DNA from: an uncultured Clostridia bacterium
GTDB taxonomy: Bacteria > Bacillota > Clostridia > Christensenellales > UBA1242
Assembly: GCA_944383375.1 (NCBI GenBank)
Contig: CALWPG010000001.1
Span: 1-64,000 of the forward strand
Reading direction: 5' to 3'
Length of the DNA: 64,000 nt
Each line of letters opens with the position of its first letter. The stretch's first letter is position 1. The notes under the pieces were generated by a model. It was not told where the DNA came from and made no database searches. It was given only the letters and a program-made list of their open reading frames with translations. Of this stretch, positions 33,478 to 44,118 are shown piece by piece. Made by a program: the position numbers and the translations under genes.

Positions 33478-34098
33478 TTAAATGACAAGAATTACATCAC
33501 TGCGAAAAATAAATAGCAAAATTGTTTCAAGTAAATTAATCAATGTCAGTGCCAGTGAAGCCAAAAGTAATGGAAATAAGACACTGAAGATCTTTTTCTT
33601 TTGATATTTACAATTTCTAATCTGAGAGCAAGCATAGCAAAAAAAGGTAATCATTATAAATAACATCAATAACTGGCACGGCAATAAAATTAATAGTGCC
33701 TTAATTATGCCATTAAAGCTGAACCATAATATTATCATCATACAATTAATGCTTATGAGAAATGCTCTATATGCTAGTAGACACCACCCAAATAGATACA
33801 AAGCCGGATGAAGAGAAAATATCATTAGCAAGATTAGGACCAATTCATAAGATAATAGTCGCGTAAAAAAATTTGCTGAGAATTTTTCTAAGTCTTCAAG
33901 TTGATATGTCAAATTAAAACTTTCAAAAATTTCTTCCTCATCTAATCCCATTATTTTTACTGCAGTAAATATACCAGTCAAAAGTCCTATCACACAAAAA
34001 AGTACGCAAAAAATGATTTTGAATTTGTTGCGTACCAAAAATTCACGAAGTGAGTATTTAAGTGAATAAAGATTTTTTGTAAATCCTTTTGATTTCAT
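33478..34098 (-). CDS. spoIIM: stage II sporulation protein M-like membrane protein
   Basis: A 206-residue protein with about five membrane helices and the SpoIIM/DUF95 pattern (an N-terminal cytoplasmic stretch, a first helix, an extracytoplasmic loop, then a Pro-containing helix bundle). SpoIIM works with SpoIID and SpoIIP in septal wall hydrolysis during engulfment. The spoIIM-pnp-dacF context supports the call. The start is uncertain: a TATAAT directly precedes the ATG at 34098 and no ribosome site is visible. Confidence 0.78.
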   Translation of the reverse strand: MKSKGFTKNLYSLKYSLREFLVRNKFKIIFCVLFCVIGLLTGIFTAVKIMGLDEEEIFESFNLTYQLEDLEKFSANFFTRLLSYELVLILLMIFSLHPALYLFGWCLLAYRAFLISINCMMIILWFSFNGIIKALLILLPCQLLMLFIMITFFCYACSQIRNCKYQKKKIFSVLFPLLLASLALTLINLLETILLFIFRSDVILVI

Positions 34099-34133
34099 AT
34101 TATATGTCTATTCACAAAAAATACAAATATTCG

Positions 34134-35348
34134 TCAAGAAACCTCATCTAACATAAAGTCAGCATATACACCATAACCTTTAGTAGGATCATACAAAAAG
34201 ACGTGTGTAACAGCACCAATCAATTTTCCATCTTGTACGATAGGAGAACCACTCATTCCTTGAACAATGCCTCCTGTAAGCTCCAGCAATCGCTCGTCCT
34301 TTACCCTGAAAATAAAACTTTTGTCGCTTGAAGAATGCTGATTATAAGTCTTTATTATTTCAATATCATACTCTTCTCTTATCCCACTAACTGCACTAAT
34401 AAGTTTTGCTTTACCAACTTTTACTACTAATCTTGAGGCGATTGGACAAGTCAAGTTTTGATCTACCAGTTGAGCAGTATCACTAACCTCACCAAAAACA
34501 CCACATGTTGTGTTTTTTTCTATTGATCCGTTTGACATGGAGCCTTGAACGAAAAGACATCTAAGTTCTCCCGCTTTGCCCTTACTACCTTTTGTTATGC
34601 CGAGCATAGTGCACGGATAAATTTTCCCATCATTAACTGGTATTTTGGCTCCAGTTTCAAAATCGGTTATAGCATGACCAAGTGCCCCAAAATCATTGTC
34701 TTCAGTGACGAAAGTCAATGTACCTATTCCCTGTGCGTCATTCCTAATCCAAATACCCAATTTATATTCATTGGTCTGAGAATCAAGGATGGGTGTTAAG
34801 TCGCATGTATTTTCTTTATCATCCCTAATATAAGTCACCTGAACAGCATTACCATTTGACTGTGCTAACTGTTCTTTTATATCTTCAACATTAAAGATAT
34901 CTATGCCATTTACTTTTGTCACTATGTCTCCGTTTTCAAGTTCTGAATTTGACTGTTTTCCATCTTTTGTCAAGACACTATTTGATCCAACCACTATTAC
35001 ACCTTTTGTAGATACGGTAAAACCTAGCGGTATTCCTCCTAAATAAACTGATTCATCGTCACACACAACTACAGTAGTCTTTTTAATTGGTATGAAACCG
35101 AACAATTTTACGACCAAAGACGTATTTTTTTCCTTAACACCTCCAGTGGTCCAAATATCCTCTGTTAGTTTTGTATCTACGAAATCTCCTAAAAGATGTT
35201 CAGAGTTTAATTTTTCCAAAGTATCCAGTGTAATTGGTGTATTATCCTGTAAGGCAATAATACTTTCAAAGTCCACGTTATAAAGTGTAAGCAAAAAACA
35301 AGAAGCGAGTATTATACCTAAAAATTTTAATATAAATTTTCTAAACAT
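34134..35348 (-). CDS. spoIVB: SpoIVB signalling serine peptidase
   Basis: A 404-residue S55 peptidase secreted by the forespore that triggers pro-SigK processing in the mother cell. One N-terminal anchor (about 6-22), a PDZ domain (about 105-200), and the peptidase domain with DFGALGHAI (His near 228) and GMSGSP (Ser366). It follows recN as usual, but spo0A, its normal downstream partner, is not here. Its ribosome site GAGGTGG lies in a terminator-like hairpin. Confidence 0.95.
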   Translation of the reverse strand: MFRKFILKFLGIILASCFLLTLYNVDFESIIALQDNTPITLDTLEKLNSEHLLGDFVDTKLTEDIWTTGGVKEKNTSLVVKLFGFIPIKKTTVVVCDDESVYLGGIPLGFTVSTKGVIVVGSNSVLTKDGKQSNSELENGDIVTKVNGIDIFNVEDIKEQLAQSNGNAVQVTYIRDDKENTCDLTPILDSQTNEYKLGIWIRNDAQGIGTLTFVTEDNDFGALGHAITDFETGAKIPVNDGKIYPCTMLGITKGSKGKAGELRCLFVQGSMSNGSIEKNTTCGVFGEVSDTAQLVDQNLTCPIASRLVVKVGKAKLISAVSGIREEYDIEIIKTYNQHSSSDKSFIFRVKDERLLELTGGIVQGMSGSPIVQDGKLIGAVTHVFLYDPTKGYGVYADFMLDEVS

Positions 35349-35380
35349 AAAAAAACCACCTCAAAGTCTATAAGGTAGTT
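35349..35380 (-). terminator. terminator after recN that carries the spoIVB ribosome site
   Basis: On the minus strand AACTACC (35380-35374) pairs with GGTGGTT (35360-35354), using one U-G pair, and is followed by T7 and the spoIVB ATG at 35348. GAGGTGG (35362-35356), the spoIVB Shine-Dalgarno, is in the 3' arm. The wobble pair exists only for minus-strand RNA, which supports this direction. Confidence 0.7.
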
Positions 35381-35398
35381 TATTTGCTTTTAAATTAA

Positions 35399-37075
35399 TT
35401 ATTCAGTGGTTTTTTGTTTCCTTGACTTTTCCAAAAGTTCTTTTGCATGCATTTTGGATGTTTGACTGTCATATCCACCCAGGAGTGTAGATAAATAGCT
35501 TATAATTTGTTCATCATCCAAGTATTTAACATGACTAACGGTAATATCATTTTCGACTTCTTTATAAACGTAAATAAACCTATCCGCAAGGGCTGTAACC
35601 TGAGGCAAGTGAGTTATACAAATGATCTGAGTGTAATTTGCCAGCGAATCTAGTTTGCAGCCAACCTTAAAGCCTATTTCACCGCTAACACCACTATCGA
35701 TCTCATCAAAAATAAGTGTTGCTACATCATTTTTGTGTCTTAGTACAGTTTTTAAAGCCAGCATAAATCTACTCATTTCGCCACCAGATATAGCTTTGGT
35801 AAGTTTTTTTTCTGACTCACCCTTATTTGCTGAAAATAAAAATTCTACTTCGTCAAGGCCATCTTTAGTGTAATTACAATCTATAACACTTGGCAATTGT
35901 TTAAAATTGACTTTGAAAATTGTATTTTGCATTTTCAGATCACTTAATTCTAATTGAACTTTTTGTTCTAGATTAGAAGCTATGTTTTTTCTTAACTCAT
36001 GCAATTTCATACTTTCAGTGTGTAAGTTGGATAAAATCACATTTTTTTGCAAAGATAATTGTTCAAGTACTTTTTCGCAATTTAAAATATTATCATATTG
36101 TTGCTGTGCGCTATTTAAAAAATTTAGTACATCTTCAATCTTTGGACCATATTTCTTTTTTAATTTTTTTATAAGTTCTTGCCTAGCAACTAAATTATCT
36201 AAATCAACTGATGTAAAATTGGCAGAATTTAACATTTCTGAAAGTGTTGTTTGAATATCATTTATTTCAATTATAACGCTTTTAAACCTTTCATAAATTT
36301 GTTCAAGAGATTGAGAATAGTTACTAATCGATGAGAGGTTAGTTAGTGCAGGTTCAAGATTAGAAGAAGCAATCGACTGCAAAGCCTGATTTAGCGATGA
36401 TGTAATTTTTTCAGCATTTGACAAAGTAGAAATTTGATTATCCAGCTCTTCGTCTTCGCCTATTTTAACAGAAGCATTGGAGATTTCATCTATTTGGTAT
36501 CTCAACAGATCCAATGTTCTCTCTCTTTCTTCGCCCACGCCTCCAATTTGATTGATTTTTGAATTTATATCTTTCAACTGCACAAGAAGTTTAGATATTT
36601 CTTCCTTTACTGGGTTAAGATTAGCTTCATCAAAACTATCCAGTAAAACCAAATGATTTTTGCTGTTTAAAAGTTCTACATTGTCATGTTGACCATAGAT
36701 ATCATACAATAGGTCAGCTATTTGCTTCAGCATGCCAACGGTAACTGTTTCGCCATTGATTTTACAACTAGATTTTCCGTCAACATCATAGGACCTAGAA
36801 ACAATAAGAACACCATCACATTCAATATCAAAATCCCTTAGTTTGTTTGTTATAGTATCATTGACATCCACAAACGTGGCTTTAACTGACATACTTGAGC
36901 TGTTATTTCTTATATCTTCTTTTTGCGCCTTATTGCCAAGTACAAATTGTAATGCTTTTAAAATTATGGTCTTTCCGGCACCTGTTTCGCCGACTAAAAC
37001 ATTAAAACCTTGACAAAACTCAAGGCTTACATCTTCAATAATTGCAAAATTTTTTATCGATAATTTTTGTAGCAT
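35399..37075 (-). CDS. recN: DNA repair protein RecN
   Basis: A 558-residue SMC-like ATPase that acts early at double-strand breaks. Walker A is GETGAGKT near 29-36, a long coiled coil spans about 150-380, and the signature ISGGEMSRFMLALK and Walker B LIFDEIDSGVSGE are near 425-475. Length is normal. It lies 7 nt downstream of argR, the conserved argR-recN pair. No LexA box is seen before it. Confidence 0.97.
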   Translation of the reverse strand: MLQKLSIKNFAIIEDVSLEFCQGFNVLVGETGAGKTIILKALQFVLGNKAQKEDIRNNSSSMSVKATFVDVNDTITNKLRDFDIECDGVLIVSRSYDVDGKSSCKINGETVTVGMLKQIADLLYDIYGQHDNVELLNSKNHLVLLDSFDEANLNPVKEEISKLLVQLKDINSKINQIGGVGEERERTLDLLRYQIDEISNASVKIGEDEELDNQISTLSNAEKITSSLNQALQSIASSNLEPALTNLSSISNYSQSLEQIYERFKSVIIEINDIQTTLSEMLNSANFTSVDLDNLVARQELIKKLKKKYGPKIEDVLNFLNSAQQQYDNILNCEKVLEQLSLQKNVILSNLHTESMKLHELRKNIASNLEQKVQLELSDLKMQNTIFKVNFKQLPSVIDCNYTKDGLDEVEFLFSANKGESEKKLTKAISGGEMSRFMLALKTVLRHKNDVATLIFDEIDSGVSGEIGFKVGCKLDSLANYTQIICITHLPQVTALADRFIYVYKEVENDITVSHVKYLDDEQIISYLSTLLGGYDSQTSKMHAKELLEKSRKQKTTE

Positions 37076-37082
37076 AAAATTC

Positions 37083-37535
37083 CTATCTTATAAATTGTTC
37101 AAATGTACTGCTTGCTTTCTGTGCAGAAAGAGGAGTTGGCATAATCACCATGACCGTATCATCCCCATAAACAGAACCCAAAACTTCATCAATATTTAAT
37201 TTGTCAATCATCGCGCAAATGCCACTTGCCAAACCTTTTACAGTTTTTATCACACACAAATTACCTGCCGGTTTTATGGAGATAACAGATTCCCTGAAAA
37301 TGGAAATGTTTTTGTTAGAAACCTGTTGGTCAGTTCCATCCATCAAGGCATATTTGTATTTGCCATCGGTGGTTTGTATTTTGATGAGTCCCAACTCTTT
37401 GATGTCTCTAGATATAGTTGCTTGAGTTATGTCGAAATTAGCTGCCTTTAAGCATGCAACTAACTCATCCTGAGATGCTATATCTCTTGTTGAAATTAGT
37501 TCTAAAATCTTAGATTGTCTTGATGATCTTGCCAC
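37083..37535 (-). CDS. argR: arginine repressor ArgR/AhrC
   Basis: A 150-residue repressor/activator of arginine metabolism genes. The N-terminal winged helix (about 1-70) holds ITQATISRDIKELGL, and the C-terminal hexamer and Arg-binding domain holds GICAMIDKL and GDDTVMVI (GDD touching arginine). AGGAGG precedes the ATG. Its own promoter lies in a cluster of ARG-box-like palindromes, indicating autoregulation. Confidence 0.95.
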   Translation of the reverse strand: MARSSRQSKILELISTRDIASQDELVACLKAANFDITQATISRDIKELGLIKIQTTDGKYKYALMDGTDQQVSNKNISIFRESVISIKPAGNLCVIKTVKGLASGICAMIDKLNIDEVLGSVYGDDTVMVIMPTPLSAQKASSTFEQFIR

Positions 37536-37591
37536 TTTTGTATTTCCTCCAAAGCCTACAACCCTTTATTTATAAGGGATACAGCCGTTTT

Positions 37592-37706
37592 TGAATAATT
37601 ATTCACGCATAATTATTCAACCTGTTTGGAATTATTATACAATGCAATTTATAATTATGCAAGCGATTTTTGCATAATTATTCATTTGATTTTTTATGAT
37701 TATTCA
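37592..37706 (-). promoter_or_regulatory. argR promoter with ARG-box cluster
   Basis: On the minus strand TTGCAT (37662-37657), 17 nt, TATAAT (37639-37634). A perfect ARG box TGAATAATTATTCA lies at 37592-37605. Near matches lie at 37607-37619, 37671-37684 (TGCATAATTATTCA) and around 37696-37706. Sites upstream of, overlapping, and downstream of the promoter fit cooperative hexamer binding. Confidence 0.8.
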
Positions 37707-37766
37707 ACAATTTTATAATTATAAAATATTGCTCTTATAAGTATGCACCATCGTAACATAAAAAAA

Positions 37767-37789
37767 GAATACCATTTTACAGGGTATTC
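37767..37789 (-). terminator. terminator of oapA
   Basis: GAATACC / GGTATTC (37767-37789), followed on the minus strand by T7. The stop codon of oapA lies in the loop. Confidence 0.8.
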
Positions 37790-38487
37790 TCTTCTTTATT
37801 ATTTTGCATCTCTATATTGTTAGATTCTACTACTTGTTTTGATTCTGTCTTTGCTTCAATAACTTCTTCACTACTTTCCTTAAACTCTTTTTTATCTTGC
37901 TTATTGTTATTCTTTTTTCCTTGAGGTGTAAACCAACTTAATACCTTACCCACGACAAGCATTATTTTATTGCAATTTTTCATAGCATACTTTTTACCAA
38001 GAGATTTTCCAAAAATTGTCATACTAGCTATCACCGCACTGACCAAAGATGCAATTATTATTCCAAGAGCAGATTCAGAATCAATAGCAATTTTCATGAT
38101 AATACTCGCACCAGCAGCACCAGATAAGATTCCACATACGTCGCCTACAACATCTGCTATAATACTAGTAAACTTGTCAGCATTCTTTATTAATTTTATT
38201 GCCTCTTTTGCACCTCTAATCTTTTTAGAAGCCATGGCCCTAAAAGGCTGTATGTCCGCAGCTGTAACAGCCACACCAATCATATCAGTCATTATTGATA
38301 TGGACATAAAGACGACAATTACCAACACAGCTATAATTACACCGGTGCCACTTAAGAAAAATTCACTAAGCACACCAAAGCACATGGACAGCGCAAATGA
38401 AAGTATAAGCACTTTTAAAGACCATATAATTTGCGAATGACTTTGTTTTTTTACCGTTTTGTTTTTCGGCTTGGGTTTAGTTTTCAC
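37777..38487 (-). CDS. oapA: OLE RNA-associated membrane protein OapA
   Basis: A 236-residue protein with an N-terminal basic tail, about four membrane helices and a charged C terminus. The central stretch (DMIGVAVTAADIQPF, then KKIRGAKEAIKLIKNADKF and VVGDVCGILSG) resembles the DUF21 part of CNNM/CorC-type magnesium proteins, which is how OapA has been described. It lies about 30 nt downstream of a long structured RNA transcribed in the same direction, the known ole-oapA arrangement near xseAB, argR and recN. The start is GTG at 38487 after AAAGGA. OapA binds OLE RNA and brings it to the membrane; loss causes cold, ethanol and magnesium phenotypes in Bacillus halodurans. Confidence 0.82.
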   Translation of the reverse strand: MKTKPKPKNKTVKKQSHSQIIWSLKVLILSFALSMCFGVLSEFFLSGTGVIIAVLVIVVFMSISIMTDMIGVAVTAADIQPFRAMASKKIRGAKEAIKLIKNADKFTSIIADVVGDVCGILSGAAGASIIMKIAIDSESALGIIIASLVSAVIASMTIFGKSLGKKYAMKNCNKIMLVVGKVLSWFTPQGKKNNNKQDKKEFKESSEEVIEAKTESKQVVESNNIEMQNNKEENTL

Positions 38488-38520
38488 TTCAATTCCTTTT
38501 AAGTTATAATATTTTTAAAC

Positions 38521-39090
38521 AAAAAAATGAAGGTAACATTTTGAGTAAACCTTGTGGCATAGGTTCGGTAGGATTTCCCCAAACTTCGCACCCATCGTCA
38601 CCGTACAGGCAGTTTCCTTTTAAGCGAAGTACAACACCGAATCGCCACTAAGACCACACTATAATCCCCAAAATGTTTGACTTTCAAAGTCACAGTCTAG
38701 AAGTTTTCCTTGACAGTCTAAACCACTCTTAGCTTTTTTTGCAAACTTGATTTCAAATGCAAAGTAGATTCAAAGATTGGCCTAATCTCCAAATTACCTT
38801 AGCGCATTATCCCTACAAATTCACTCAAAGCAGGCTACTCTGCACACAGCCGTTTTTTAACCGCAATGCAGGTTCTCCCCAAACAGTACCAAAATTGGCA
38901 CCAATTTGGGTCTCCACGAAAACTGGGTCGGGGGTTATATGCCGTTATAACTCGCCCAATAATCTTAACTCCCAGCACGCACCCCAATTTGGGCAATCAA
39001 AGCACGCACCAGAAACTTCACAGTTGTGCCCTTCGTTGCTTGTTTTATCAACTTCCAAGTGATCTAGCCTGACTAGAATACTGCACCTTC
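38521..39090 (-). ncRNA. ole: OLE RNA (ornate large extremophilic RNA), probable
   Basis: A gene-sized stretch (about 570 nt) without a credible reading frame, more GC-rich and hairpin-dense than its flanks. It has its own consensus promoter and ends in a terminator: AAGGT/ACCTT (38530-38553), then T7 on the minus strand. Many short self-complementary segments occur, such as CTAG-N5-CTAG near the 5' end and CCAAATTGG-type stems. Size, direction, the gene order xseB-RNA-oapA-argR-recN and the adjacent OapA identify it as OLE. I could not fold it or match it to a covariance model. RNase P RNA and tmRNA were considered and lack their conserved cores. Confidence 0.78.
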
Positions 39091-39096
39091 AAGATA

Positions 39097-39125
39097 ATTA
39101 TAACATAAATTATATTATTTTTCAA
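39097..39125 (-). promoter_or_regulatory. promoter of the OLE RNA
   Basis: On the minus strand TTGAAA (39125-39120), 17 nt, TATAAT (39102-39097), giving a start near 39090. It lies just past the xseB stop, so the RNA has its own promoter besides any readthrough. Confidence 0.8.
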
Positions 39126-39133
39126 CCATTTTG

Positions 39134-39340
39134 TTATTTCATATCTTTTTCAATTATAGTGTCAAGCTCGGTGCTAAGTTCAGTGATTTTGCCTTTATTG
39201 TCATCTAACAACTTCGCACAACTTTTTGCAATTTGTTTGCCTTCTTCGAATAGCGAAGTGGCTTCATCAAAAGTACATTCCCCACTTTCAAGTTTTAACA
39301 CTATTTCTTCGAGTTTTTTAAGTTGTTGCTCAAAATTCAT
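39134..39340 (-). CDS. xseB: exodeoxyribonuclease VII small subunit
   Basis: A 68-residue helical protein, the small subunit that coats XseA. FEQQLKKLEEIVLKLESGE and LFEEGKQIAKSC are the family pattern. It overlaps xseA by four bases (ATGA). In many clostridia ispA and dxs follow it; here the OLE promoter comes directly. Confidence 0.95.
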   Translation of the reverse strand: MNFEQQLKKLEEIVLKLESGECTFDEATSLFEEGKQIAKSCAKLLDDNKGKITELSTELDTIIEKDMK

Positions 39341-40515
39341 TCTTCTTCTCCTTCTATTCTTGCTTTAACTTCACCATCTGAAAATTTTATTGTTATCATG
39401 TCACTAATATTTAAACTTCTAGCAGATGTTATGTAACAATCATTTCGTTTAACGACAGAGTAACCAAGTTTTAAAATCTCATTAGGGTTTAGTTTCGAAA
39501 GTCTATTTTGCAGTATGAAAAATTTATTATAATTATCACCATAAAATTGGTTTATCAAATATTTAAATTTAACCAAGTTGTTTTTTAGATCACTTTTTGA
39601 TCGTGAATTTAAATCTGAAAAGTTATATATCAAATTTTTTACAAGGCCCACGAATTGAGTATGCTTATCAATATACATATTTTGTATAGCCGGTTTAAGC
39701 CTTATGATCAAAGAATTATAAGTTCTTTTTTGTTCATTAATATCTGCGCACAAGAGCTCAGCGGCTGCACTTGGCGTTGACGCTCGCATATCACTGCAAA
39801 AATCGCATATTGTGTAATCAGTTTCGTGACCCACAGCAGACATAATAAATTTTTTTGCATTATATACTGCATCCGCCACGACTTCGGTATTAAAAGGTGC
39901 CAAGTCTTCAAGTGAGCCACCGCCTCTTGCCACTATTATTGCATCAACATCATAACCATCCAGTGTTTTAATACCTTTGGCAATTTCATATTCGGCACCA
40001 ATTCCCTGAACTTTAGCAGGATATAATACGATATCGATGTAAGGGTTACGACGCGTACGAATGTTAATTATATCCTGGATAACAGCGCCTTCCTTGCTCG
40101 TAACAACACCTATCCTTTTTATTGTAGGTGGCAAACCAATTTTGTGCTCTTGGTCAAAATAACCTTTAGCTTCAAGCCTAGCTTTCAATATTAAAAATTG
40201 TTGGTATAAATCACCCAGTCCAAACTTTTCAATCCTCTGCACATTAAAGTTGAGTTTTCCACCCTTGACATAATAACGAGGTGTGCCAGTTAAAATTACT
40301 TTATCTCCGTTGCTGTAAGAGAAATTTGTTGTTTCAAAGCATACACAGGACATTGCTGCATTTTCGTCTTTCAACACAAAATAAGCGACATTTCTGACCA
40401 CGCTCAGTCCAGAAATCTCTCCAACAACTCTTATATTATACAACAATTCCTCAGCATCAAAGATTTGCTTGAAGTACATTGAGATCTGAGTAACTGTTAA
40501 TGGCTTCTGCTCCAC
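39337..40515 (-). CDS. xseA: exodeoxyribonuclease VII large subunit
   Basis: A 392-residue nuclease subunit that degrades single-stranded DNA. The N-terminal OB fold is about 5-95, and the catalytic core has ARGGGSLEDLAPFNTE and SAVGHETDYTICDF near 185-240, followed by a coiled coil. The GTG at 40515 directly follows the nusB stop, with AGAGG upstream. Confidence 0.96.
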   Translation of the reverse strand: MEQKPLTVTQISMYFKQIFDAEELLYNIRVVGEISGLSVVRNVAYFVLKDENAAMSCVCFETTNFSYSNGDKVILTGTPRYYVKGGKLNFNVQRIEKFGLGDLYQQFLILKARLEAKGYFDQEHKIGLPPTIKRIGVVTSKEGAVIQDIINIRTRRNPYIDIVLYPAKVQGIGAEYEIAKGIKTLDGYDVDAIIVARGGGSLEDLAPFNTEVVADAVYNAKKFIMSAVGHETDYTICDFCSDMRASTPSAAAELLCADINEQKRTYNSLIIRLKPAIQNMYIDKHTQFVGLVKNLIYNFSDLNSRSKSDLKNNLVKFKYLINQFYGDNYNKFFILQNRLSKLNPNEILKLGYSVVKRNDCYITSARSLNISDMITIKFSDGEVKARIEGEEE

Positions 40516-40905
40516 TCAATTTTCCTCTACAATATTTTTTAAAATGCCATTGACAAATGAATAGCTTTTTTCAGTACCATATTTTTTAGCCAAATTAACA
40601 GCTTCATTTATAACTATCTTAAAAGGCGTTAGCTTATAATATTTTATCTCTGCGACAGCAAGGCACAAAATCGCCCTATCCACTCTATATAACCTTTGCA
40701 AACTATAATCTTTCAAACAGGCTGAGATAGTGTCCTCTATTTCATCTTTATGTTCTAGACAAAGATTTAAAAGTGTAGTCGCAAATTCTCTATCCTCTTC
40801 ATTTTTAAGTGAAGTAAAATCATAAATACCATCCACATTTGTTGTGGAATCAAATAAAGATTCAAATACTTTACAAAATGCCATCTCTCTTGCGTATGTG
40901 CGCAT
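40516..40905 (-). CDS. nusB: transcription antitermination factor NusB
   Basis: A 129-residue all-helical protein acting with NusE (S10) and NusA on rRNA operons. The RMAREMAF-like start (RTYAREMAFCKVFE) and C-terminal KYGTEKSYSFVNGIL are diagnostic. It sits in the usual asp23-nusB-xseAB order. Confidence 0.95.
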   Translation of the reverse strand: MRTYAREMAFCKVFESLFDSTTNVDGIYDFTSLKNEEDREFATTLLNLCLEHKDEIEDTISACLKDYSLQRLYRVDRAILCLAVAEIKYYKLTPFKIVINEAVNLAKKYGTEKSYSFVNGILKNIVEEN

Positions 40906-40941
40906 ATATCCTCACTTTTAAAAAAATCCACAAAAGTGGAT

Positions 40942-41316
40942 TTAGTTTTGGTCTTCTGTTTTAAAGTCAACACCCACAATGTGGATATTTATTTTATTTA
41001 CTCTCATCTCCACCATTGAAACAATGTTGTTCTTTATGTTTTCTTGCACCCTGTATGCTATATCAGGTACACTGTTTCCACTAAATATTCTAATGTAAAC
41101 ATCAATTAATAATTGTCCATTTTGGGCAATTTTTAATTTGACACCAGTGGAGTCAGACTTTGAAAATAATTTTTTTAGTTTCATAGAAAAACTATCTTGC
41201 AAAGACGATACACCACTGATTTCCTTTGTCGCCAAAGAGATGATTGATAACAAAATATTTCTATCGCAAGTTATTTTTCCTTTATCTTCACCAAGCTCGC
41301 TATAAAGTTGTGTCAC
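40942..41316 (-). CDS. Asp23/Gls24 family envelope-stress protein
   Basis: A 124-residue Asp23-family protein (YqhY-like). The body has GKITCDRNILLSIISLATKEISGV and the C-terminal VDVYIRIFSG/VNKINIHIVGVDF strands. The family has been linked to acetyl-CoA carboxylase control in Bacillus. The start is the GTG at 41316, spaced correctly from GTGAGGG; the GTG four codons earlier overlaps that site. It lies between spoIIIAH and nusB, as in many Firmicutes. Confidence 0.88.
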   Translation of the reverse strand: MTQLYSELGEDKGKITCDRNILLSIISLATKEISGVSSLQDSFSMKLKKLFSKSDSTGVKLKIAQNGQLLIDVYIRIFSGNSVPDIAYRVQENIKNNIVSMVEMRVNKINIHIVGVDFKTEDQN

Positions 41317-41390
41317 AAATACCCTCACTTTGTTATATTTAGGTTTTCACCAATTGGAAATAATATAACATATTTAAAAAGGTTTTGCAA

Positions 41391-41864
41391 TTATTCTACA
41401 GGAATTATTTTGATATTATCTATGGATTTTTGAGTTTGCTCTTGAACAATTGCAACTATTTGGGCAACCTGTGAGCTCTCAAGGCTAGCACACTTGACAA
41501 TGACGTTTATATTGTTAGCTGAGTTTGTAACTATTGCATCCTCAAACCCTTTAGCTTTTATCAAACCTTCCATGACAAGTTCAGATTCCATTTGGTTTAC
41601 TATTTCAAGCTTTTTTGCTTCTGCATTGCTTTTGGCCTCTTCTGTTGAGTCTTCAGAATTTATTATAGCATCATAATACAATAATTCCTGATCGCGAGTC
41701 GTTTGTCTATCCTGCCTATAAGTATCAAAATAGTTCATCTGCGTGACGGTACCCGTAGTTGGAGTTGTTGCATTGTTGTTTAAAGCAATATTCAAATATC
41801 CAGTAACTCCCAACAATAAAACCATCGCTACTAAAATAATAATTTTTGTTCTTTTCTTTAACAT
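41391..41864 (-). CDS. spoIIIAH: stage III sporulation protein AH
   Basis: A 157-residue mother-cell membrane protein whose extracellular YscJ/FliF-like domain meets forespore SpoIIQ to form the feeding channel. One N-terminal helix (about 7-26), then an extracellular part with a helix-rich stretch and the C-terminal ring-building fold (about 85-157). It is the last gene of the eight-gene spoIIIA operon. Confidence 0.93.
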   Translation of the reverse strand: MLKKRTKIIILVAMVLLLGVTGYLNIALNNNATTPTTGTVTQMNYFDTYRQDRQTTRDQELLYYDAIINSEDSTEEAKSNAEAKKLEIVNQMESELVMEGLIKAKGFEDAIVTNSANNINVIVKCASLESSQVAQIVAIVQEQTQKSIDNIKIIPVE

Positions 41865-41876
41865 AATAAACTCCTT

Positions 41877-42422
41877 TTATTTTCCTACCAAAATTTCTAT
41901 ATCTTCTGCATTGACTTCAAGTAATGCCATCACTGCTTTTTGTAGTTCAAGCATTACACTTATGTTGTTTGCTCCACTACTCACAACAACCACACCGCTT
42001 ACTTTTGGCAAATTTTCTCTTATAATTATTGGAGAATTTTTACCCGAAACCGATACCAAAATAATTTCTTCTGTTTTGGTTGTCTGTGTGGTGGTCGTAC
42101 CTGCAACGGTTTGAGTTGTGGTTTCTTCTGTTGTATTTGTCGCATAAACATACTCTATTCCACATGATAGCGTAATCATTACACTAACATTTCCGGCCCC
42201 ACTTATTTGCGAGAGTACATTTGATAATTTATTCTCAAGGTAGTTCGCATATTCCTCTGTTGTAAGTGCTGTTAATGTATTTTCTTGTTGATTATCAGAA
42301 GAGAATGTCGAACTGTAAATAAGAAGCAAAATTGCACAAAATGCTACGACGATAATAATCTCGAAGTGCTTTATGCCTTTAATCTTGTCCCAAAAATTTT
42401 GTTTTTTTTGCTTAGTATCCAC
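41877..42422 (-). CDS. spoIIIAG: stage III sporulation protein AG
   Basis: A 181-residue protein with an N-terminal helix (about 20-40) and an extracellular ring-building domain. A Thr-rich insert (about 95-115) precedes the conserved PKVSGVVVVSSGANN segment. In B. subtilis SpoIIIAG forms the large ring of the channel. It overlaps spoIIIAF by 11 nt. Confidence 0.93.
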   Translation of the reverse strand: MDTKQKKQNFWDKIKGIKHFEIIIVVAFCAILLLIYSSTFSSDNQQENTLTALTTEEYANYLENKLSNVLSQISGAGNVSVMITLSCGIEYVYATNTTEETTTQTVAGTTTTQTTKTEEIILVSVSGKNSPIIIRENLPKVSGVVVVSSGANNISVMLELQKAVMALLEVNAEDIEILVGK

Positions 42423-42900
42423 TGAATACTATATTCTCCTTTTTTATCTCAATAAATGAAGTTATCACATCAACAGCCTCATTCTCTATATCTATATGCT
42501 CTGCTTCAGTGCGTATAACTAAATTACTAAAATCGACATAAATCGTCTCAATTTGCATAACGGTAGTAAAAATATCGGCAGAAATTGATACATCAACATT
42601 CTCTAACCCTCTGCTATCCAGAGTTTTTTCAATCCCCGTTTCAAGCATTGTAAGTTTATCTCTGTTTAATTGATAAATATAATCTTCTTGAAGGACAATT
42701 TCTGTTTCGGTGAACAAAGATGAGGTATCAAAATCAGATTTAATGAGAGCTGGTAGCGGCGCAATTATTACAAAAATTATCACATAGTTAAAAACAGTTT
42801 TGATGTGTGAGTTTGTTTCGCCGTTGGGCAAAAACAAGTCTATTAAAACTGATAAAATGCTAATACCCGCTATTGACAATATCCAACCTGAAATACTCAT
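42412..42900 (-). CDS. spoIIIAF: stage III sporulation protein AF
   Basis: A 162-residue protein with two N-terminal helices (about 6-25, 33-55) and a soluble ring-building-type domain (about 85-160). The N terminus SGWILSIAGISILSVLIDLFLPNG is family-typical (cut here to its main part). It lies in place between AE and AG. Confidence 0.9.
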   Translation of the reverse strand: MSISGWILSIAGISILSVLIDLFLPNGETNSHIKTVFNYVIIFVIIAPLPALIKSDFDTSSLFTETEIVLQEDYIYQLNRDKLTMLETGIEKTLDSRGLENVDVSISADIFTTVMQIETIYVDFSNLVIRTEAEHIDIENEAVDVITSFIEIKKENIVFSGY

Positions 42901-42912
42901 TTTTTTCTCCTT

Positions 42913-44118
42913 TTAAAAGAAGTTGGCAGTGCACATTATCATACCAGTTAAAAGCAAATACATAAATGCACATCCAAGAATCAAAACAATAAGAAGTGAA
43001 ATACTTTTCGCAAGCATTGATATAAAATTTGATATTCTTGCATCGGTTATAGGCTCTAATATCGCTGAAACTAATTTAAGGCTAAGCATAAACACGATAA
43101 GATTAAGCACAGGAACAATGATTGTAGCAAACATCAATATAAGCCCACCTGCACCTACAGCATTTTTAATTAAAACACTACTTGCTATGATAAGATTAAG
43201 TCCATCGGAAAGATAAGAGCCCAATAATGGTATTGAGTTTTTGATAGCGTATTTCGCTGTTCGAAAAGATATACCGTCAACACTACCCGCCGTTATTCCC
43301 TGAATTGCCAAAAATGCTGAAAAGATGGTAAATACTCCACCTATAATCCACTTAAACAGACTAGAAAAGAATGAAGTAAATTTATCTAATTTAACATTGT
43401 TTGAAAGATTCCCAACAATTGAGAAAACTAAACGAAAAATAAAAATTGGCATTAATATTTTGGTAAAAACATTAATAATTGTACCACTTAACACTGCCAC
43501 AGCGGGTTGATATACACTTACAGAAGTTACACCACCTATAGCAGTCAATATAGTTAAGAGTATAGGAAAAGCAACATCCATTTGTAGTTTTATATTTTGA
43601 AGAGTATTGGAAGTAAGTGTAAGCATGTTTACCGTATAGCCGACCAAAACTACTATGATTGCCCCATAACATACGAAATGGATAATATCTCCAATTGATT
43701 TATTTTTTGACGACGGCTTGGATGCACTAACCAAACTAAACGTAACAGCAATTGCAATCACCAAAGACAAAATGGGCAAAAATGCCAAAACATCTTCAAA
43801 GAATAAATTTAATATACTTGTCCAAATTGATTGTTGTCCTTGGGCGAATTCCCCAGTAATAATTTGTTTAATTTTATCTAAAAACGAATCGTTTCCAAAT
43901 ATTTCTTTTCCGGTATTGTCCAATGAATTTAAGGCATCTTCCAATTCGCTAAAATCCAAATCACCCAGCTGTGACTCAACACTATCTTCTATGATGTCCT
44001 CAATTTCAGAGGAAGTTAGTTGATCATCACAATAAACAGTTTCGTTTACATTTTGTGCAAAGGCAAAAGGAATTGCGACAAAAACTATGAGAATAAAAAG
44101 CGCAATATATTTTTTCAT
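42913..44118 (-). CDS. spoIIIAE: stage III sporulation protein AE
   Basis: A 401-residue polytopic membrane protein, the largest of the spoIIIA set. A signal-like N-terminal segment (about 1-21), an extracellular acidic helix region (about 30-105), then about eight membrane helices with the conserved stretch QGITAGSVDGISFRTAKYA near 265-285. Its start overlaps spoIIIAD by 4 nt. Confidence 0.95.
   Translation of the reverse strand: MKKYIALFILIVFVAIPFAFAQNVNETVYCDDQLTSSEIEDIIEDSVESQLGDLDFSELEDALNSLDNTGKEIFGNDSFLDKIKQIITGEFAQGQQSIWTSILNLFFEDVLAFLPILSLVIAIAVTFSLVSASKPSSKNKSIGDIIHFVCYGAIIVVLVGYTVNMLTLTSNTLQNIKLQMDVAFPILLTILTAIGGVTSVSVYQPAVAVLSGTIINVFTKILMPIFIFRLVFSIVGNLSNNVKLDKFTSFFSSLFKWIIGGVFTIFSAFLAIQGITAGSVDGISFRTAKYAIKNSIPLLGSYLSDGLNLIIASSVLIKNAVGAGGLILMFATIIVPVLNLIVFMLSLKLVSAILEPITDARISNFISMLAKSISLLIVLILGCAFMYLLLTGMIMCTANFF

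Follow-up and report, generated by a model that had tools for sequence, protein, structure and literature searches.

The window analyzed here, a 64,000-nt stretch of contig CALWPG010000001.1 from an uncultured Clostridia bacterium, carries a real OLE RNA beside its membrane partner OapA, and within the family of its host these two partners come apart. Of the 207 family genomes sampled that bear OapA, 109 have it without OLE, in at least two or three lineages, with the protein core and its DxxxD motif kept and the basic loop between transmembrane segments TM2 and TM3 lost. OapA and OLE may accordingly be separable, with the lost loop as the docking surface, a core function of OapA that does not depend on the RNA, domain 2 of OLE as the part that engages the protein, and domain 1 dispensable in some species, a reading in which we place roughly even confidence. 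The family offers a natural dissection, in which genomes hold the RNA and the protein, the protein and only a third of the OLE sequence, the protein alone, or MpfA instead. Comparing them separates the residues that likely touch the RNA from those that OapA requires for an activity of its own, and it points to short constructs suitable for testing, i.e., a 230-nt OLE and an OLE-free OapA of ~200 aa.

An OLE RNA and its OapA partner between xseB and argR

OLE is a large bacterial RNA whose biochemical function is unknown. The sequence-only reading had proposed its presence between xseB and argR, and a search of the minus strand of 38500–39130 confirmed this identity: the Rfam OLE model (RF01071) matches 39105–38514 over its full length (model positions 1–616) with 404.5 bits and an E-value of 2.3e-115, for a gathering score of 50. 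This is the single OLE copy in the 994,686-bp genome (18 contigs, 99% complete, 0.4% contamination). The conserved 5′ sequence GGTGCAGTATTCTAGTCA begins near 39087 on the minus strand. For domain 1, support for the structure comes from the Rfam alignment, and for domain 2 from pair counts in a 16-sequence alignment, in which 27 of the 47 consensus pairs show double-sided (compensatory) changes; the window OLE forms 46 of these 47 pairs. Relative to the model, a hairpin in domain 1 has lost 11 positions, and a domain 2 hairpin of 19 model positions, which may be the OapB-binding one, is reduced to 1 nt, this hairpin being also missing in most family OLEs. Three loops that likely correspond to the published dimer contacts are widely kept across 41 family OLEs (GCCCA in 40, GGCAT in 41, and GGCC in 34). 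The stretch had also been described as free of open reading frames (ORFs), which is not strictly so, as it is overlapped by three ORFs (101, 68, and 53 aa); all three lie inside the conserved structured RNA, and they have no support as genes.

The RNA has its own promoter, exactly as proposed (39097–39125, minus strand), with TTGAAA at 39125–39120, a 17-nt spacer, and an extended-TG TATAAT at 39102–39097. With 11 of 12 consensus matches, this is the best promoter-like site of the region, and RNA start is expected near 39090. A terminator belonging to the OLE unit, also claimed, did not materialize: a consensus scan of 37500–39350 returned 0 intrinsic-terminator-like sites, with 0.9 expected in shuffled sequences. 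Since OLE ends in a long-range closing helix followed by T7 and no separate terminator was found, transcription likely reads through into oapA, whose GTG start lies 27 nt past the end of the OLE match and is preceded by a ribosome-binding site, AAAAGGA.

The oapA gene (37777–38487, minus strand) encodes a 236-aa CNNM/DUF21-like membrane protein that matches the CNNM family PF01595 at 29.5 bits (curated cut-off 28.4) and has no further domain, i.e., neither CBS nor CorC_HlyC. A match just above the cut-off agrees with the published description of OapA (PMC11332333). In an alignment with 12 further OLE-linked OapAs, it has the invariant residues D68, D112xxxD116, G115, G123, K161, and K165, and it has about four hydrophobic segments (stretches around residues 18–47, 33–77, 109–147, and 133–163), which bears out its earlier identification as an OapA-like, DUF21-type protein directly downstream of the RNA. 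The topology rests on hydropathy and charge, and the basic TM2–TM3 loop (residues 78–107) would be cytoplasmic by the positive-inside rule. A PDB sequence search with an OapA profile gave no match at E ≤ 0.1, and a single-sequence structure prediction of the window OapA was unusable (mean pLDDT 48). After about residue 190, the protein ends in a charged C-terminal tail that varies even among members of one genus; in the window (37777–37910), ~45 residues of it are charged and of low complexity, and they differ between species of the genus. Other family OapAs bear long N- or C-terminal extensions.

In order of transcription, the locus reads spoIIIAE-AF-(AG)-AH, Asp23/yqhY, nusB, xseA, xseB, OLE, oapA, argR, recN, spoIVB, all on the minus strand from xseA (exonuclease VII large subunit, 39337–40515) and xseB (small subunit, 39134–39340) to argR (arginine repressor, 37083–37535) and recN (RecF/RecN/SMC N-terminal ATPase, also related by BLAST, 35399–37075). 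Pfam confirmed xseA, xseB, argR, recN, spoIVB, spoIIIAE/AF/AH, nusB, and Asp23/yqhY. The setting of xseAB, argR, recN, and sporulation genes is a recognised OLE neighborhood; its flanks of xseAB on one side and argR-recN on the other thus hold as first read, and the same setting recurs in related genomes. The accompanying statement that OLE hosts are mainly extremophilic and anaerobic Bacillota carries over in part, the host being a Clostridia member with a reduced ~1-Mb genome from metagenomes and not evidently an extremophile. Despite its size, this genome still keeps spoIIIAE/AF/AH and spoIVB around OLE (33478–44118), and a correlation between OLE and sporulation genes has been reported. 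Between oapA and argR (37536–37776), several AT-rich near-palindromes (GAATAATTATGCA...TGCATAATTATAA, GAATAATTATTCA) resemble ARG boxes, and argR may possibly be autoregulated through them. ArgR has been named as a candidate OLE partner, on evidence unpublished there (PMC12265935).

Among the other partners of OLE, bS21 is encoded in the window genome (PF01165, 72 bits). The L7Ae family (PF01248), to which OapC belongs, gave no match at E ≤ 1 in this genome (control positive in 10 of 14), and the KOW family (PF00467) matched only L24 and NusG at E ≤ 1. OapC is therefore absent by this search and OapB apparently so, although a very divergent KOW protein could be missed. Taken at face value, this predicts a minimal two-part OLE–OapA complex. 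The MpfA-type domain PF03471 was likewise not found in the window genome.

OLE and OapA are decoupled in one family

The family survey covered 297 genomes (0.5–2 Mb), each queried for OLE, OapA, and PF03471. OLE and OapA occurred together in 98 of these, one of which also carried MpfA, while OapA (E < 1e-15) without OLE was found in 109, 24 of them with MpfA; another 45 carried MpfA alone, and 45 had none of the three. Every OLE-positive genome had OapA (98/98). Weak OapA matches (E 1e-3 to 1e-9) were not counted, since 15 of the 17 family cases carry MpfA and the match is probably to its CNNM domain. OLE and MpfA hardly ever share a genome, with a single overlap between 98 OLE-positive and 70 MpfA-positive genomes (Fisher p = 5e-13, a value that ignores kinship).

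As a control, the OLE and OapA searches were run on 363 genomes of the class with completeness ≥90%. Outside the family, OLE and OapA coincided exactly, in the same 147 genomes (147/147) and with no exception in either direction, which argues that the decoupling does not stem from a shortcoming of the searches. Within this sample, it is confined to the window's family. OLE and OapA have been called "almost completely mutually inclusive" (PMC11332333), and the family data contradict such an obligate pairing. Neither an OapA without OLE nor an OLE consisting of domain 2 only is described in the open-access literature covered, although an earlier report may exist elsewhere. The genomes involved all seem to be bins from metagenomes (MAGs), and the independent losses of OLE are few.

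The loci themselves are informative. At least 20 orphan loci, i.e., loci of an OapA without OLE, show the order xseA-xseB-oapA-argR(-recN), which is that of the window minus OLE, and in the orphan loci measured the gap between xseB and oapA spans 34–176 nt (e.g., 37 nt in G058 and 49 nt in G069) vs 646 nt in the window. Genus g26 holds both states, with OLE in the slot in G041 and the slot empty in G069 and G138. On a tree of XseA, ArgR, and RecN (usable rows), we counted two state changes, the first inside g26 and the second at the root of a seven-genus clade; the OapA tree gives four, its deep branches being weakly supported. In genus g34, the OLE-less OapA occupies a different slot, often xseB-proS-oapA-infC, and OLE-positive g34 genomes have a second OapA next to OLE. 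A sub-threshold match to the L20 leader (46.5 bits) lies just 3′ of one g34 orphan oapA, ahead of infC-rpmI-rplT (L107, 3588–3714).

Gene order also varies where both partners are present: oapA is upstream of OLE in G131 (L138, genus g7) and converges with a shortened OLE in G019 (L125, genus g4), so a tandem OLE-oapA arrangement is not universal. In both the OLE and the OapA trees, modules from g12 (L139, L051, L060) and g9 (L129) fall inside the g34 group (L136, L137), whereas a further g12 module (L131) falls elsewhere. The g12, g9, and g34 modules also differ in their flanking genes. OLE-oapA may possibly have moved horizontally as a two-gene unit, with binning errors as an alternative. 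Genera g9 and g7, which include OLE-positive genomes (G024 and G131, respectively), also include genomes with PF03471 and no strong OapA (G062, G132, and G151; G061 and G150), and these members are candidates for a replacement of OLE/OapA by MpfA.

The basic TM2–TM3 loop is retained with OLE

After TM2, OLE-linked OapAs from inside and outside the family share a conserved loop segment, P81-F-x-A-M-A-S-K-K-x-x-G-A-K94. At least five of seven motif positions were kept in all 75 OLE-linked OapAs, counting the one linked to a shortened OLE, vs two of 44 distinct orphans, a split that mostly reflects shared ancestry and comprises too few pairs for a formal independent-pairs or contrast test. Both exceptions come from g26, in which the loss of OLE looks recent. 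Across the same 44 orphans, D68, G71, D112, G115, D116, G123, A154, K161, and K165 were all retained at 100%, which indicates that the orphan protein is under selection. Mean net loop charge falls from about +4 in OLE-linked proteins to +1.8 in orphans, although charge is a poorer marker than the seven-position motif, with net values of +4 and +3 retained in L115 and L116, respectively.

Genome G121 encodes both forms: the loop of its OLE-adjacent OapA (DIQPFMAMASKKVKGAKQ) has 7/7 motif positions and a net charge of +5, and that of its distant copy (DEEYFLLQKEKNNQGSEI) has 0/7 and −1. On the tree, loop decay accompanies OLE loss in about four events, two of which lie on well-supported branches. 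Since the loop is kept only where OLE exists and has decayed in the orphans, it is the best candidate for an RNA-docking surface, which we regard as a strong lead rather than statistical proof.

A shortened OLE without domain 1 in genus g4

The only two g4 genomes in the sample, G019 and G059, gave OLE matches of ~217 nt with 96–107 bits. These mini-OLEs are ~230 nt long and consist of the conserved 5′ GTGCAGTATCCTAGT, a hairpin of 5–7 pairs that replaces P2 and all of domain 1, and a complete domain 2 up to the 3′ end; of the RNA body, what is retained corresponds to the 3′ part of domain 2, at 38531–38715 (minus strand) in the window. Both are immediately preceded by a TATAAT box. The two RNAs share 70% identity, and an assembly artefact is unlikely to have produced the same junction in two assemblies that have diverged this far. 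All 61 invariant columns of the 16-sequence alignment are retained, invariance having been computed with the mini-OLEs included, and 38 and 39 of the 47 consensus domain 2 pairs are formed, with four compensated pairs between the two mini-OLEs and eight in each relative to a full-length OLE of g7, the genus whose OapA is nearest to that of g4. The OapA of G019 keeps six of the seven loop positions, and in G059 oapA sits away from the mini-OLE.

P3 is the proposed membrane-spanning helix of OLE, and the g4 RNA would have to work without it as well as without the dimer part in domain 1. The dimer resolved by cryo-EM is that of domain 1 (PMC12286853). Published OLE variants lose or shorten P7–P9 only (PMC11332333, PMC12265935). 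Short OLE matches in G089, G103, and G003 were rejected as further mini-OLEs, being ordinary OLEs cut by contig ends. Short matches also occur in G178 and G304, the latter starting at base 1 of its contig.

A proposed minimal OLE ribonucleoprotein and its alternatives

We consider it likely that the window encodes a minimal OLE ribonucleoprotein, in which an OLE transcribed from its own promoter docks through domain 2 on the loop of a CNNM-type OapA and adjusts its activity. An OLE RNA of ~575 nt would be made from the sigma-70 promoter, and OapA translated from the gene just downstream. OapA would be the membrane effector, probably a transporter or channel for divalent cations (Mg2+) similar to members of the CNNM/MpfA family, as suggested by its kinship to MpfA/CorB, by the Mg2+ phenotypes of OLE mutants, and by the near-exclusion of OLE and MpfA. 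The domain 2 end of OLE may dock onto the basic cytoplasmic loop between TM2 and TM3, and the docked RNA may then tune OapA activity to stress. Domain 1 would be an added platform for sensing and dimerization, linking OapC and bS21 where those exist. Shrinking genomes may peel off these layers stepwise, from OapB and OapC to the stems, domain 1 (as in g4), the RNA (as in the orphans), and finally OapA. One misfit is that the published model places domain 2 outside the cell (PMC12265935), at odds with docking on a cytoplasmic loop.

The orphan genomes could instead hold an OLE that is too divergent for Rfam or lies on missing contigs, in which case the partners would still be obligate. A divergent RNA can indeed escape a covariance model, filtering was stricter in the large scans, and single cases could be assembly gaps, such as G276, in which oapA sits at a contig edge. 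However, a laxer search of 38 orphan genomes found no OLE match above about 14 bits, and a comparison of 11 orphan oapA loci with the whole of Rfam at E ≤ 5 yielded no OLE, whereas even a 230-nt mini-OLE reaches the scores given above. The short syntenic gaps between xseB and oapA and the loss of the basic loop likewise fit a true loss of OLE, and we judge this explanation improbable. Slightly less credible still is that OLE is mainly a structured leader of the oapA mRNA, acting in cis like a riboswitch rather than serving as a ribonucleoprotein partner. At most loci, oapA does follow OLE immediately in the same orientation, and no terminator separates the two, but the gene orders of G131 and G019 do not suit a leader, a leader is not expected to shape the loop of the protein, and OLE binds OapA in H. 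halodurans (PMC9723947).

A third alternative, that the window OLE is a decaying, functionless relic, would suit a shrinking genome in which OapB and OapC are missing and the 19-position domain 2 hairpin is down to one, from a family in which several sister genera have lost OLE. It is nevertheless very hard to reconcile with the consensus promoter, a 404-bit match over the full model, the intact OapA loop, and a domain 2 with nearly all pairs formed and compensatory changes at more than half of them, and we give it very little credence. The minimal ribonucleoprotein remains our preferred reading of the locus.

Comparison with known systems

The OLE-oapA gene pair of the window is an already known kind of locus, and an ordinary member of its class. 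It most closely recalls the OLE ribonucleoprotein of Halalkalibacterium halodurans (RF01071 with OapA, OapB, OapC, and bS21), with which it shares a full-length OLE match, oapA directly downstream, a bS21 gene, and xseAB, argR/recN, and sporulation genes close by. Unlike that system, it is found without OapC and without an OapB candidate, in a reduced ~1-Mb genome, and with the domain 2 hairpin down to 1 nt.

In these respects, the window OLE resembles the "variant 1" OLEs of reduced-genome bacteria (TANB77 clade), which are "largely" without OapB and OapC, have shortened P7–P9, and have lost the OapB site at P13 (PMC11332333, Fernando and Breaker 2024). Shared traits are the reduced genomes of uncultured bacteria, the absence of OapB and OapC, apparently shortened stems, and a trimmed domain 2 hairpin, possibly the site of OapB binding, a likeness drawn from the published description. 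The same paper describes neither an OapA without OLE nor an OLE lacking domain 1. Finally, the MpfA/CorB/CNNM transporters are related through the PF01595 match of OapA and through the near mutual exclusion of OLE and MpfA in the family; unlike these transporters, OapA is without CBS and CorC_HlyC domains and has an OapA-specific DxxxD motif.
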